Shown here piece by piece: positions 15,430 through 21,097 of a stretch of DNA of 32,110 bases (positions are counted from its first letter, which is position 1; each line of letters opens with the position of its first letter). This DNA comes from Alphaproteobacteria bacterium (GTDB lineage Bacteria; Pseudomonadota; Alphaproteobacteria; UBA8366; GCA-2717185). Below the pieces are notes generated by a model. The model was not told where the DNA came from and searched no databases. It saw only the letters and a list, made by a program, of their open reading frames with translations. The stretch spans positions 1 to 32,110 of the forward strand of contig JBBDQU010000039.1 in NCBI GenBank assembly GCA_040905865.1, read 5' to 3'. The position numbers and the translations under genes were made by a program.

Positions 15430-15538
15430 GTTGTAACGTCCTTTACCGGTTATTCCTCCGTGGGCAAAAAGCCAGTTTCCCAGCACCGGAGCGGCCACTA
15501 CCCTCATCGGCAGCGCGCGCAAACCCACGTGTGATATG
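15430..15538 (-). ncRNA. Candidate structured 5' leader of rpsB
   Basis: If the promoter at 15545-15573 is used, rpsB mRNA has a leader of about 109 bases. It can close a six-base helix, CGTGGG (15524-15529) with CCCACG (15459-15464). Inside it, CCGGT (15485-15489) can pair with ACTGG (15472-15476) across an eight-base loop. The same CCGGT can instead pair with ACCGG (15446-15450), which abuts the Shine-Dalgarno AAAGGA (15439-15444). Two exclusive pairings next to a ribosome binding site fit autogenous control by S2, known in other bacteria. This is a hand-drawn fold with no energy or covariation test. Confidence 0.35.
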
Positions 15539-15611: not shown

Positions 15612-18600
15612 CTAAAGATCCCTTACATCCATGACCCCGGGGATCGACTTGACCGCCGAACGCATGGCAACGGAAATCGCGAACCCGCCGGGAATATCGA
15701 TTTCGATTTCCCGGTCATCCGTCTCCAGCATCAGGCGCACCCGGCCGGGGCCCTTCTCGCCATGTTCGCGGAATACGTTGGCCAGGCTCGTCAGCGGCGT
15801 TTCATCGCACATGAAGACACACAGGCCCGCGGCGGCCCGCGCCGCCGCCTCATCCAGCGGCTGGATACTTTGCGCCGTCAGCCGGAAACCCTCGTTCCAG
15901 CGCTGCACGTCTACGGTCGCCAGAAGCGGCGCGCCGGATTCCAGAAGATCCCGGCTTCCCGCCAGCACTTCGGAAAAGACCGTTATTTCGTAGGACCCTG
16001 TCGCGTCGGACATCTGCACAAACGCCATCTTCGAGCCCCGGGAGGATGTGGTGAATCGGCGCGCCGAAACGATCCCCGCCAGCTTGATTCGTCCCTCGTT
16101 CATCCGGCCCGTCGATACCTTGATCCACTCCACGACGCCAAGCTTTTCGCAGGTCGCCTGGTAGGATTGAAGCGGATGCGCCGACAGGTAAAAACCGATT
16201 GCCTCGAACTCCTGCTGCAGGCGTTCCTGCGCCGGCCACTCATCGACCGCCGGCAGCGGCGGCGTAATCGCCGATTCTTCCGCGCCGAACAGGTTGACCT
16301 GCTTGCTTTCCCGGTCATTCTGCGCCGCATTGGCGTGCCGGACCAGCATTTCCACGGCATCGAACAACTGATGCCGGTTCGGGTTCAGGCTGTCGAATGC
16401 CCCTGCCCGCACCAGGTTTTCGATCTGCCGCTTGTTGAAGACCTGGGTCCCCAGCCTGGTGGAGAAATCGAAGACGGAACTGTAGGGGCCGTTCGCCTCG
16501 CGCTCCGCCACGACCGCCGTCATGGCCGCCGCGCCGACATTTTTCAGCGCCGCCAGCGCATACCGGACGGCCAGCGTGCCGTCCTCCCGGGTTTCGACCG
16601 TAAAATCGACGCCGGACTTGTTGACGTCCGGCGGCAGCAGCGCGATGCCCAACCGGTCCAGTTCGATCCGGAAAAGGCTCAGCTTGTCCGTATTGCCCAT
16701 GTCCTCGCTCATCGAGGCGGCAAAGAACTCGACCGGGTAATTCGCCTTCAGATACGCCGTCTGGTAGGCGACCAGCGCGTAGGCCGCGGCATGGGATTTG
16801 TTGAAGCCATAACCGGCAAATTTGGCAACCTGGTCAAAGATACGCCCGGCAACCGTACCATCGACATTGTTCGCCGCCGCCCCATCGACGAAGATCTGGC
16901 GCTGCGCATCCATTTCCGACTGGATCTTCTTGCCCATTGCCCGCCGCAACAGGTCCGCGCTGCCAAGGCTGTAACCGGACAGAACCTGCGCGATCTGCAT
17001 GACCTGTTCCTGATAGATCATGATCCCGTAGGTTTCCTTCAGGATGCCCTCCAGCGAAGGATGCAGATAGTCCGGCGTCTCCTGGCCGTGCTTCCGCTTG
17101 ATGAAACTGGGGATATTGTCCATCGGCCCCGGACGGTACAGCGCGACCACGGCGATGATGTCCTCGAACCGGTCCGGTCGCAGCTTCTTCAGCACGTCGC
17201 GCATGCCGGAGCTTTCCAGTTGAAACACGCCGGTCGTATCCGCGTTGCACATCATTTCGAAGGATTTCGCGTCGTCGAGCGGTATTCGATCCAGCGCCAG
17301 GCCGATATTGCGCTCTTCCAGCCGGCGGACTGCGCCGACAAGCACCGTCAGCGTCTTCAATCCCAAAAAGTCGAACTTTACCAGCCCCGCCTTCTCGACG
17401 AATTTCATGTTGAACTGGGTGACGGGCATGGTGGAACGGGAATCCCGATACAGCGGCACCAGTTCATTCAGCGGCCGGTCGCCGATCACGACCCCCGCGG
17501 CATGCGTGGAGGCGTGCCGGTACAGTCCTTCCAGCTTCAGCGCGGTATCGACGAGCCGGCCGACTTCCGGGTCCTCGTCGCGCATCTGCGCCAATAGCGG
17601 TTCGTCCTTCAGCGCCTGCGCCAGACTGACCGGATTCGCCGGATTGTTCGGCACCAGTTTGCATATCCGGTCAACCTGGCCATAGGGCATTTCCAGGACA
17701 CGGCCCACATCGCGCAGCACGGCCCGCGCTTCAAGCTTTCCGAAAGTGATGATCTGCGCAACCCGGTCGTCGCCGTATTCCTGCTGAACGTAGCGAATGA
17801 CGTCGTCACGGCGATCCTTGCAGAAGTCGATGTCGAAATCCGGCATGGACACTCGTTCCGGATTCAGGAACCGCTCGAACAGCAGACCGAACCGCAACGG
17901 GTCGAGATCGGTGATCGTCAGCGCCCAGGCGACAACGGACCCGGCGCCGGACCCGCGGCCCGGCCCGACGGGAATACCCTGATTCTTCGCCCATTGGATA
18001 AAATCGGCAACAATCAGGAAATAGCCCGGAAAGCCCATCTGCTCGATGACGCCCAATTCATAATCAAGACGCTCTCGATACGGCGTTGCCAGTTCATTGC
18101 GACGGGCCGAATCCATCCCGGCAGCGAACACCTGCACTTCAAGCCGCTTTTCCAGCCCATCGGTGGCCAGTTGCCGCAAGGCTGCCGATTCGCTTCGTCC
18201 ACCGAGCTTGGGATAGGTCGGCAGGATCGGATCATGGGTGTCCGGCATGAACGCGCAGCGCTGCGCAACCACCAGCGTGTTGTCGATTGCCTCCGGAATA
18301 TCGGCGAAAAGTTCGCGCATTTCCTGCGCGGATTTGAAATAATGTTCCGGCGTTACACGCCGCCGGTCCATCCGCGATACAGTCGCCCCTGCGGCAATGC
18401 ACAGCAGCGCGTCATGCGCCTCATACATGTCCCGGTCGGCAAAGAAAACCTCATTGGTCGCCACCAGCGGCAGGTCATGCGCATAGGCCATGTCGATCAG
18501 GGCTGTTTCGATCTGCTCCTCTTCCGGCATGCCGTGCCGCATCAACTCGACATAAAGCCGTCCGTCGAACATATCCGCCAGCCGCCGCAGCATGGCCCCC

Positions 18601-19070
18601 GCATCGCCGTGCTGCCCGTTCAGCAGCAACCGGCCAACCGGGCCGCCGGTTCCCCCCGTCAGCGCAATCAGCCCGGCATGATGGGCCTCCAGGTCAGCCA
18701 GCGAAATCTGCGCCGCGTCTTCCGCCGCCGAATCGAGAAACGACTTGCTGACCAGCGCCAGCAGGTTTCGGTAGCCTTCCTGCGACTGCACCAGCAGGAC
18801 CAACCAGTCGACGCCGACGCCGACCGCGCCGTGGGGCATGTCGATTTCGCGTTTTACGGCAATCTGGCAGCCGATGATCGGCTGGATACCCGCTTCGCGC
18901 GCCGCCAGTGAAAACTCCAGGGCGCCAAACAGGTTGCCGGTGTCCGCCACGCCGACCGCCGGCATCTGCTGGCGTTTGGTCAGTTTTATCAGGTCCGGAA
19001 TCTTGATCGCGCCTTCGGAAAGCGAAAACGCGTCATGGACTCTCAGATGGACGAAATCGGCATGCGACAT
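15612..19070 (-). CDS. dnaE: DNA polymerase III subunit alpha DnaE
   Basis: DnaE is the replicative polymerase of the chromosome. The 1152-residue protein has an N-terminal PHP domain, the C-family palm with PDFDIDF, where the two catalytic aspartates lie, and [11 protein letters not shown] with the third. Fingers, helix-hairpin-helix and OB domains follow. The clamp-binding motif is QVNLF at 924-928, at the same position as in E. coli DnaE. The PHP domain begins HLRVH and reads ADTGN where active PHP enzymes have a histidine, so it is probably inactive and proofreading would need a separate DnaQ. ATG at 19068-19070 gives the standard opening [12 protein letters not shown]. There is no Shine-Dalgarno, and a perfect TATAAT ends eight bases upstream. 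Confidence 0.98.
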
Positions 19071-19078
19071 GGATCGAA

Positions 19079-19105
19079 ATTATACCCGAGTCGTCAGGCT
19101 GTCAT
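19079..19105 (-). promoter_or_regulatory. Candidate promoter of dnaE giving a near-leaderless mRNA
   Basis: The minus strand has a perfect -10 TATAAT (19079-19084). A -35-like ATGACA (19100-19105) lies 15 bases upstream, shorter than the usual 17. With a start 6-8 bases after the -10, transcription would begin at or within two bases of the dnaE ATG at 19070. No purine-rich ribosome site lies between. Confidence 0.5.
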
Positions 19106-19140
19106 CCCTTCGCATACACAAAGATATGGTGGCGACGCAG

Positions 19141-19164
19141 TTTTCCACCGCGATATGTGGATAA
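19141..19164 (-). promoter_or_regulatory. Inverted pair of DnaA-box-like 9-mers upstream of dnaE
   Basis: TTATCCACA on the minus strand (19156-19164) matches the E. coli DnaA-box consensus TTWTNCACA perfectly. TTTTCCACC on the plus strand (19141-19149) matches at eight of nine positions. They face each other six bases apart and form an imperfect dyad (TTTTCCAC against GTGGATAA). They lie about 40-60 bases upstream of the dnaE -10, in the gap after lolD. DnaA control of dnaE expression is an inference. Confidence 0.45.
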
Positions 19165-19176
19165 GACGGTGTTGCG

Positions 19177-19860
19177 TCAGACTGCGACGAGAACACCATC
19201 CTCAAGCCGGACAACCCGGTCCAGCCGCGACGCCAGATCGACGTTGTGTGTCGCGATCAGCGCCGCAAGCCCGTTGTCGCGAACGAACGAGAGGAACAGG
19301 TCCAGCACTTCCGCCGCCGTATGGGCGTCAAGGTTGCCGGTGGGCTCGTCCGCGAGCAGCAGGCGCGGCTCGTTGGCCAGCGCGCGGGCAATGGCGACCC
19401 GCTGCTGCTCCCCTCCGGACAGGCGCGCCGGGCGGTGGCCTGCCCGATTCGACAAACCGACAGCCGCGATCAGTTCTCGAGCCCGCTCGCGCGCCGCGCG
19501 ACGCGACTTGCCGGCGATCATCTGCGGCAGGATGACGTTTTCTTCCGCCGAGAATTCCGGCAGCAGGTGATGGAACTGATAGACGAAGCCGATTTCCGTC
19601 CGCCGGATCGCCGTTCGGGCCGCGTCGGACAGGACCCCGCAGGCACGACCGCAGATGCCGACATCGCCACCATCGGGCATTTCCAGTAACCCGGCCACAT
19701 GGAGCAGCGTCGATTTCCCGGCGCCGGACGGCCCGACGAGCCCGACCAGTTCACCAGCGGGCACGGAGAGCGTGGCGTCGCGAATGACCTCAAGGCGGGC
19801 GTCCGCCTGTCTGTAGGTCCGGACCACATGATCCAGTTGCAGTACCGGCCCGTCACTCAT
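19177..19860 (-). CDS. lolD: Lipoprotein-releasing ABC transporter ATP-binding protein LolD
   Basis: LolD powers extraction of outer-membrane lipoproteins from the inner membrane and their transfer to LolA. The 227-residue ATPase has Walker [10 protein letters not shown] (43-51), the signature LSGGEQQ (147-153) and Walker B LLLADEP (167-173). The [17 protein letters not shown] segment (89-105) is typical of Lol/MacB-type ATPases. ATG 19858-19860 overlaps the end of lolC by eight bases. An in-frame extension of 29 codons lies inside lolC and is Trp/Arg/Cys-rich, so I rejected it. The pair with lolC and the position before dnaE match other alphaproteobacteria. Confidence 0.97.
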
Positions 19861-21097
19861 AACGCAGCACTTCCACCGGATCGAGCCGGGCCGCGCGGCG
19901 CGCGGGGAAAACCGAGGCCAGGAAGGACAGCACCAGCGCCATGACAACGACTGTCGCCACCTCCTGCGGGTCGAGATCCGCCGGCAATTGCGACAGGAAG
20001 TAAATCTCCGCGTTAAACAGTTCGGCCCCGGTGAGCGACTGGATCGACTGCCGGATGGACTCGATATTCAGCGCAAACGAAATCCCGAGAATGCTTCCCG
20101 CCAGCGTTCCCACCAGCCCCACACTGGCGCCGGTCATGAAGAAAATTCGCAGGATCATGCCCCGGGATGCACCCATCGTACGCAGGATCGCTATCCCCTT
20201 CCCCTTGTCGTTGACCAGCATGATCTGGCTGGAAATGACATTGAACGCGGCGACGACGATAATCAGCGTCAGGATCAGGAACATGACATTCCGCTCCACC
20301 TGCAGGGCCGTGAAGAAACTGGCATTCGCACGCTGCCAGTCATAAATCCTGTAACCGGCCCCGATTTCCCTGCCGATTGCCGTGGCCGCCGAAAACACGT
20401 CGTCCGGGTTTTCGAGCATGATTTCGATGCCCGAAACAGCATCCTTCTTCCGGAAAAATATTTGCGCCTCGGACAACGGCATATAGATGAACGTGTCGTC
20501 ATATTCCGACATGCCAACCTTGAATACGGCGGCGACCGGATAGGCCTTCATGCGCGGCAAGGTGCCGAACGCGCTGGGATTGCCGTTCGGCGAGATCAGG
20601 GTGATCGAGTCGCCGGGCCGCAACCCCATACGGTCCGCCATTCGGGCGCCGACGACGATTCCTGTGTCGGCCGCGAAGTCATCCAGGCTTCCGGCGACGA
20701 TGCCATCGGCCAGAATTGCGCGGCGCCGGAAATCCGCTTCGCGCAGCCCCCGAACCAGCGCGCCGGACGCCACGCCGCGCGCCGTCGCCATCACCTGGCC
20801 TTCCACCATCGGAATGGCGCTGAGAATACCCGGTAAGGCGGTAATTTGCGCCACCAACGGGTCGAAATCGGCAACCGTCCGCGTATTATTGGTAACGTTC
20901 AGATGACCGTTGACGCCGAGGATACGCGACAGCAATTCCTGGCGGAACCCGTTCATGACCGCCATGACGATAATGAGCGTCGCCACGCCCAGCATGATGC
21001 CGGCAAACGAGAACCAGGCGATGACGGAAATGAATCCTTCCTGGCGGCGCGACCGCAGGTAGCGTAATGCGACGAAGCGTTCGAATGCGGTAAACAT
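19853..21097 (-). CDS. lolC: Lipoprotein-releasing system permease LolC/LolE family
   Basis: This is the membrane subunit partnering LolD, 414 residues. It has an N-terminal helix (about 22-48), a large periplasmic MacB-like domain (about 50-265), and three C-terminal helices (about 270-295, 315-345 and 375-400). It ends [10 protein letters not shown], the usual FtsX-superfamily close. The opening [19 protein letters not shown] (12-30) is the typical Lol start. Only one permease gene accompanies lolD here; E. coli has lolC and lolE. It may therefore act as a homodimer like the proteins called LolF, unless a second permease lies elsewhere. ATG 21095-21097 lies two bases after the proS stop. 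Confidence 0.95.

Follow-up and report, generated by a model that had tools for sequence, protein, structure and literature searches.

The gap between lolD and dnaE holds two sequences that resemble DnaA boxes and face each other, which raises the question of whether this pair is more than a chance match and, if so, what it does in front of a DNA polymerase gene. We examined the window, that is, the whole stretch of 32,110 nt that was analysed. Both flanking genes lie on its minus strand and leave a gap of 106 bp (19071-19176). The features in and around the gap are as follows.

15612-19070, minus strand: dnaE, DNA polymerase III alpha subunit, 1152 aa (NF004226, 1487.6 bits, over the cut-off)
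19079-19084, minus strand: -10-like TATAAT, read by eye, ending 8 nt before the dnaE ATG
19100-19105, minus strand: -35-like ATGACA, read by eye, within the conserved GGGATGACA block
19118-19130, minus strand: another conserved block, reading ACCATATCTTTGT in gene sense and located downstream of the dyad and upstream of the core promoter
19141-19149, plus strand: DnaA box 2, TTTTCCACC, facing box 1, at -79 to -71 from the dnaE start codon
19150-19155, no strand: 6-nt spacer of the inverted pair, between box 2 and box 1
19156-19164, minus strand: DnaA box 1, exact TTATCCACA, in gene sense at -94 to -86 from the dnaE start codon
19177-19863, minus strand: lolD, ABC transporter ATPase, the upstream neighbour (best match TIGR02211 LolD, 248 bits, below the cut-off of 308; longest ORF 19177-19947)
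19853-21097, minus strand: ORF, seen by translation, which from gene order we take to be lolC

The Rfam search returned nothing at the dyad, and a tRNA search of the window found none. Elsewhere in the window, Rfam matched the rpsB sRNA (RF01815) at 15434-15533, in the minus-strand leader of an ORF read as rpsB, with 40.1 bits, barely above the gathering score of 40.

In gene sense the dyad reads TTATCCACA-TATCGC-GGTGGAAAA and spans -94 to -71 relative to the dnaE start codon. An earlier sequence-only reading had described a perfect minus-strand box facing an eight-of-nine plus-strand box, six bases apart in a 106-base gap, and all of this was confirmed on the sequence. Both members fit the DnaA-box consensus, box 1 exactly and box 2 at 8/9 positions of the relaxed form TTWTNCACA (7/9 of the strict TTATCCACA). 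Box 1 is the sole exact TTATCCACA in the window, and because one-mismatch boxes occur there at chance level (4 against 3.2 expected), the window alone proves little. The chance figure first given for an exact box, 0.25 per 32 kb, was too high; the whole 4.37-Mb genome contains 6 copies, box 1 among them, or about 0.04 per 32 kb. What decides the matter is the comparison between genomes: conservation at the dnaE position exceeds chance, and it indicates that the candidate DnaA-box pair upstream of dnaE is real.

We compared the 601-bp stretch around the gap with three congeners, whose assemblies are 64-88% complete. Identity was 88% in G001, 75% in G003 and, over part of the stretch only, 70% in G002. 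Both boxes are letter-identical in G001, G003 and the genome under study, G000 (18/18 box columns), and the spacer keeps its 6-nt length in all three, with 4/6 columns identical. Outside the dyad, 44/84 columns of the alignment are identical and 40/84 vary. The ACCATATCTTTGT block is also identical in the three genomes. Its core, AAGATATGGT, occurs exactly in 6/196 dnaE upstreams, three of them G000, G001 and G003, against an expectation of 0.0 in 10 shuffles of the same upstreams; at another locus (L078) it forms part of an NrdR-like 13/16 stretch. The check in sister species thus found the dyad in two of three congeners, with no box in the lolD-dnaE gap of G002, and the site recurs far beyond the genus. 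Across 43 genomes of the order, the pattern TTWTCCACA-N4..8-GTGGAWAA was present as a single copy in each of G000, G001 and G003, always at dnaE, and in none of the other 40, and the reversed pattern gave 0.

Twenty lolD-dnaE gaps were inspected, and five of them held an exact TTATCCACA (L009, L010, L011, L016, L024) and one held TTTTCCACA (L023). In four of the five gaps of family f4 (L014, L017, L018, L026; not L019), TTATCCCC is followed by a second TCCACA, possibly a degenerate or adjacent DnaA-box pair.

The wider recurrence was assessed in two sets of dnaE loci, in both of which TTATCCACA was the top 9-mer before dnaE. The named set comprised the best 80 of at least 586 relatives, mostly Rhodospirillales-type records; an exact box lay within 150 bp of dnaE in 21/80 loci, and ten 150-bp control bins from -1650 to +750 gave 0 of 75-80 loci each. 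The class search found dnaE in 186/192 genomes, and since the best-scoring 110 were taken, this set leans to nearer relatives. L224 and L254 were dropped, as no start codon was found, the weakly matching L271 was kept, and 108 loci were usable. Within 160 bp of dnaE, 14/108 of these loci (best 110 of 186, own genome included) carried an exact box. The control stretch from -500 to -160 of the 108 loci contained one exact TTATCCACA and one TTTTCCACA, and the first 190 bp of dnaE in the same loci contained no exact TTATCCACA.

Merging reduced 205 loci to 197 without identical upstreams and to 196 long enough for the windows. Left out of the merge were 3/20 relative loci with a misplaced start (L021, L023, L024), including the TTTTCCACA box of L023 and the TTATCCACA box of L024. 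The results showed that 37/196 distinct alphaproteobacterial upstreams in this merged, de-duplicated set carry an exact TTATCCACA within 160 bp of dnaE, against an expectation of 0.115 by 200 dinucleotide shuffles (maximum 2) and 0.11 from the genome-wide rate. The best of 200 permuted 9-mers reached 3/196. Genome-wide, TTATCCACA occurred 621 times in 169.4 Mb of 42 genomes, or 3.7 per Mb, and the reversed 9-mer 648 times. The genome-wide frequency check suggested with the sequence-only reading therefore points to a site specific to the dnaE upstream. An 8/9 box is present in 37 of the 159/196 upstreams that lack an exact one, where shuffles give 3.0. Of the one-mismatch forms, TTATCCCCA was the most frequent before dnaE (9/196 loci), and position 5 of the box was nearly always C in the one-mismatch list, tighter than TTWTNCACA.

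A DnaE tree was built for 121 loci, of which 30 carry a box; on it the box required at least 19 state changes, and the dyad, present in 6 loci with a partner of 7/9 or better, required 4. The distribution of the box is patchy, yet it extends over many separate lineages. It includes loci where no lolD was found upstream (for example L064, L082, L094, L096, L112 and L121), indicating that the box goes with dnaE.

We next consider where the box lies. The 37 loci contain 41 sites, which begin between -154 and -59 from the start codon, 27/41 of them at -105 to -82. No site enters the last 50 bp before the start codon, and the nearest ends at -51. A DnaA-regulated promoter is expected to have its box within a consistent range of distances from the gene start, as is seen here. 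Downstream of the dyad, the candidate dnaE promoter of the sequence-only reading found mixed support: a putative core promoter, ATGACA - 15 nt - TATAAT, is plausible by eye with a short 15-nt spacer, but a consensus promoter scan covering spacers of 16-18 nt reported no promoter in front of dnaE. The -10-like TATAAT is not kept in G003 in the congener alignment, and over the 196 dnaE loci TATAAT-like matches peak, weakly, 6-9 nt before the start. As the TATAAT ends 8 nt before the ATG, the dnaE mRNA may be leaderless, with transcription probably beginning at about the start codon.

The geometry of the pair was evaluated by scoring 100 partner settings (orientation x spacing 0-24) in the 37 loci. 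The inverted partner at spacing 6 scored best, with a mean of 4.0 of 9 against a background of 2.23 +- 0.37, and 6/37 loci reached at least 7/9; the remaining 31/37 have a single box without a good (7/9) partner. When all loci were used, none of 2000 trials with shuffled right flanks matched the inverted-6 score. Reduced to a single locus for each of 18 DnaE clusters, the set gave a mean of 3.44 at spacing 6 (P 0.0075), and another spacing reached 3.5. Inverted-6 ranked first among the inverted spacings with 33, 26 and 10 promoter clusters and second with 5, lower cluster thresholds chaining through background similarity. These findings indicate that the inverted 6-nt partner is the best-scoring pairing, less clearly so when each group of related loci is counted once.

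Perfect or near-perfect 6-nt dyads were found in L058, L195 and L188. A stricter pattern, TTATCCACA-N6-TGTGGATAA, allowing one mismatch or none and not matched by the dyad of the window itself, was present in 7/289 class genomes, with 0 for the reversed control. Three of the seven strict dyads lie at dnaE (L280, L282, L286), one after lolD at a contig end (L281) and two elsewhere (L283, L284). The seventh (L285:1501-1524, genome G309) sits in the gap between ftsA and ftsZ of another alphaproteobacterium.

We also examined the other exact copies of TTATCCACA in the genome, given here by contig.

C11: inside the longest open frame and 5' to the conserved portion of an nrdA-type RNR gene (NF006577)
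C56: about 200 bp upstream of nrdJ, a B12-dependent RNR gene (TIGR02504)
C13: L126:1821-1829, about 65 bp before guaB, IMP dehydrogenase (TIGR01302)
C10: between an isocitrate/isopropylmalate dehydrogenase-like gene and a small ORF of no known identity
C5: near a thioesterase gene

Orthology of the boxes was assigned from overlapping BLAST alignments followed by column-by-column comparison; the three congeners hold 26 exact boxes, 24 of them with a locus compared. Orthologous exact boxes were present for C11 in all three congeners, for C56, C10 and dnaE in G001 and G003, for C13 in G001, and for C5 in none of the three. Thus 5/6 exact boxes are conserved in a congener, in the same alignment column in 10/10 pairs. 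The C56 site is a tandem pair, TGTGGATAA-CGT-TGTGGAGAA, with its boxes 3 bp apart.

Among the RNR matches listed for the order, our own included, an exact box lay upstream of the barrel domain in 12/30 loci, at -473 to -504 from the domain in 11/12, and in none of the 30 did one lie within the barrel-domain match or downstream. The positions of L296, L302 and L314, which are close to contig ends, were wrong or could hardly be assigned; 12/30 is a lower count, because the L302 box is also upstream by coordinates. L304 has one extra site, in the open frame before the barrel domain. At the nrdA-type RNR locus L125, ATACAAGATATAGTGT lies beside TCATCCACA and CTATACACA, about 55-110 bp 5' of the exact box in gene sense, and is NrdR-like at 14/16 by eye; this layout suggests joint NrdR and DnaA input.

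The genome encodes a single DnaA (one PF00308 match; TIGR00362, 564 bits) with a standard domain IV, RPRQVAMYL...FGGRDHTTVMHA, which we take to be the signature of that domain. A stretch of 19 kb holds 23 boxes that differ from TTWTNCACA at no more than one position, and eight of them cluster in about 440 bp just before hemE (L168:8460-8902, G000:C85). The neighbourhood of hemE is the usual place of alphaproteobacterial oriC, and this cluster is likely the chromosome origin; none of its eight boxes is an exact TTATCCACA. The 13-kb dnaA stretch has one exact TTWTNCACA site only, TTTTCCACA, inside an ORF that is presumably recF by gene order.

Comparison with known systems suggests that the dyad belongs among DnaA-regulated promoters. 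According to an E. coli ChIP-seq study, DnaA prefers tandem box pairs 2-3 bp apart, and its regulon includes double DnaA boxes at nrdA, polA and purH (PMC11317965). The dnaE dyad resembles these in joining a high-affinity TTATCCACA to a weaker box, the candidate targets in this genome likewise fall in nucleotide synthesis and replication, and the nrdJ site shares the tandem arrangement with 3-bp spacing (PMC11317965). Unlike those tandem pairs, the dnaE boxes face each other with 6 nt between them; an assignment as an E. coli-type double DnaA box was rejected for this inverted geometry and 6-nt spacer. According to a review covering the Caulobacter DnaA regulon, DnaA has been shown to target RNR in E. 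coli and is proposed to do so in Caulobacter, boxes lie before the replication genes dnaQ and dnaB of Caulobacter crescentus, and DnaA binds the ftsZ promoter of that species in vitro (PMC8203912). The present site would likewise have an alphaproteobacterial DnaA as transcription factor. For guaB, an older claim of a DnaA target in E. coli was left unconfirmed by the ChIP study (PMC11317965). The word dnaE has 0 occurrences in the main text of the ChIP-seq paper (PMC11317965) and 0 in the review (PMC8203912), and no link between DnaA and the dnaE promoter was found in the open-access literature. DnaA-regulated promoters are known already; the present one would be unusual in having dnaE as its target, and its inverted 6-nt geometry is unusual too.

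We consider it likely that the dyad is a DnaA operator of dnaE that tunes its transcription, most likely by activation, in a regulon with RNR genes and guaB. From the observed sequence, its conservation and position, and the genes at the other exact boxes, we infer that DnaA would fill the perfect box 1 with high affinity and, by cooperativity, would help a second molecule onto the weaker facing box 2. The bound protein would act on dnaE transcription from a position upstream of the -35 region. As the 50 bp directly before the start codon are free of sites in all loci, it would most likely be an activator. The supply of dnaE polymerase would then follow the level or nucleotide state of DnaA, which would couple it to the cell cycle, and the dyad would belong to a small regulon of this genome with two RNR genes and guaB. 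The recurrence of the site before dnaE in many distant relatives probably reflects a polymerase supply tied to the start of replication. Counterpoints to this operator reading are the 159/196 upstreams and the congener G002 without an exact box, the likely oriC without an exact TTATCCACA, the E. coli preference for tandem pairs, the strict C at position 5, the weaker inverted-partner signal with one locus per DnaE cluster, and the unconfirmed status of guaB in E. coli. The site is best classified as a pair of putative DnaA boxes at a promoter under DnaA control, with an uncommon target, dnaE, and an uncommon inverted arrangement over 6 nt.

The sequence-only reading had left the choice between regulation of dnaE and titration of DnaA. 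We favour transcriptional regulation over pure titration because of the upstream position and the exact boxes at RNR genes and guaB, and the interpretation given with that reading is partly supported. The datA/DARS class consists of box clusters with IHF/Fis sites that act on the nucleotide state of DnaA. That the dyad mainly holds DnaA, by titration or by nucleotide exchange as at datA/DARS, with the neighbourhood of dnaE being secondary, is in our judgement unlikely. A strong box outside oriC, where datA/DARS boxes lie too, could bind DnaA, and the genome has few exact boxes (6). However, the gap holds one pair at a promoter and no cluster, so that membership in the datA/DARS class (box clusters tied to DnaA-ATP turnover, PMC11317965) was rejected. 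In many lineages most sites lie within a narrow range before dnaE, including loci with no lolD found upstream, and such a link to dnaE, RNR and guaB is not what titration predicts. Chance, in which a rare 9-mer merely happens to sit before dnaE, has almost no probability left: the one-mismatch boxes of the window alone would allow it, but the count before dnaE far exceeds the roughly 0.11 expected, congeners keep the box in the same alignment column, and shuffles, permuted 9-mers, reversed-pattern controls and flanking bins rule it out.

An operator of another regulator, above all NrdR, is about as unlikely for this locus as titration. The core CCACA-N6-TGTGG resembles an NrdR box, whose consensus we take to be the 16-mer ACACWATATATWGTGT, usually in pairs; some dyads of other genera have an inverted ACA-N6-TGT core like that of this consensus, both NrdR and DnaA act at RNR genes, and the genome encodes an ATP-cone protein of NrdR size and has the 14/16 stretch, seen by eye, 5' of its nrdA-type gene. 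Moreover, 13/196 dnaE upstreams score at least 12/16 to the NrdR consensus, against 1.95 in shuffles; 8/13 are box loci, and in 6 the stretch overlaps the DnaA box (L058, L116, L188, L200, L216, L222). Joint or alternative use of NrdR may thus occur in other genera. The window locus, however, is outside the 13: its dyad core does not fit, at about 7/16 by eye, and with less than 12/16 to ACACWATATATWGTGT it was not classed as an NrdR box. Loci without an exact DnaA box are weakly enriched (5/159 against 1.7 shuffled), the conserved 9-mer is TTAT plus CCACA with TTAT outside the NrdR box, and the many loci with one box and no good partner also argue against NrdR. It is less probable still, and very unlikely, that the inverted repeat acts as RNA, as a hairpin or terminator ending the lolD mRNA. 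A region of 57 nt has a somewhat better fold than its shuffles (z -2.2, 6/200 shuffles as good), and the perfect dyads in L058 and L195 could give a 9-bp stem, but the predicted fold leaves box 1 and box 2 unpaired with each other. Scan and folding gave no terminator call, no U run and no GC stem followed by one, and an intrinsic terminator at the dyad was rejected. Keeping an exact TTATCCACA in 31/37 loci without a good partner is the opposite of covariation, and at loci with no lolD found upstream dnaE still has the box.

The preferred reading remains a DnaA operator in front of dnaE. A wider version, an old alphaproteobacterial DnaA supply regulon (dnaE, class I/II RNR and guaB) with a face-to-face 6-nt operator for transcription and not an origin element, is conceivable, though on balance we hold it to be somewhat doubtful. 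The site is short, recurrent and consistently placed, which opens it to direct tests in laboratory alphaproteobacteria, and the inverted 6-nt pair, unlike the tandem preferred in E. coli, raises the question of how DnaA acts as a transcription factor. If the operator reading is true, DnaA control of the replicative polymerase would close a loop in which the protein that opens the origin also sets the polymerase supply, and, through RNR and guaB, DnaA would set the substrates for replication as well.
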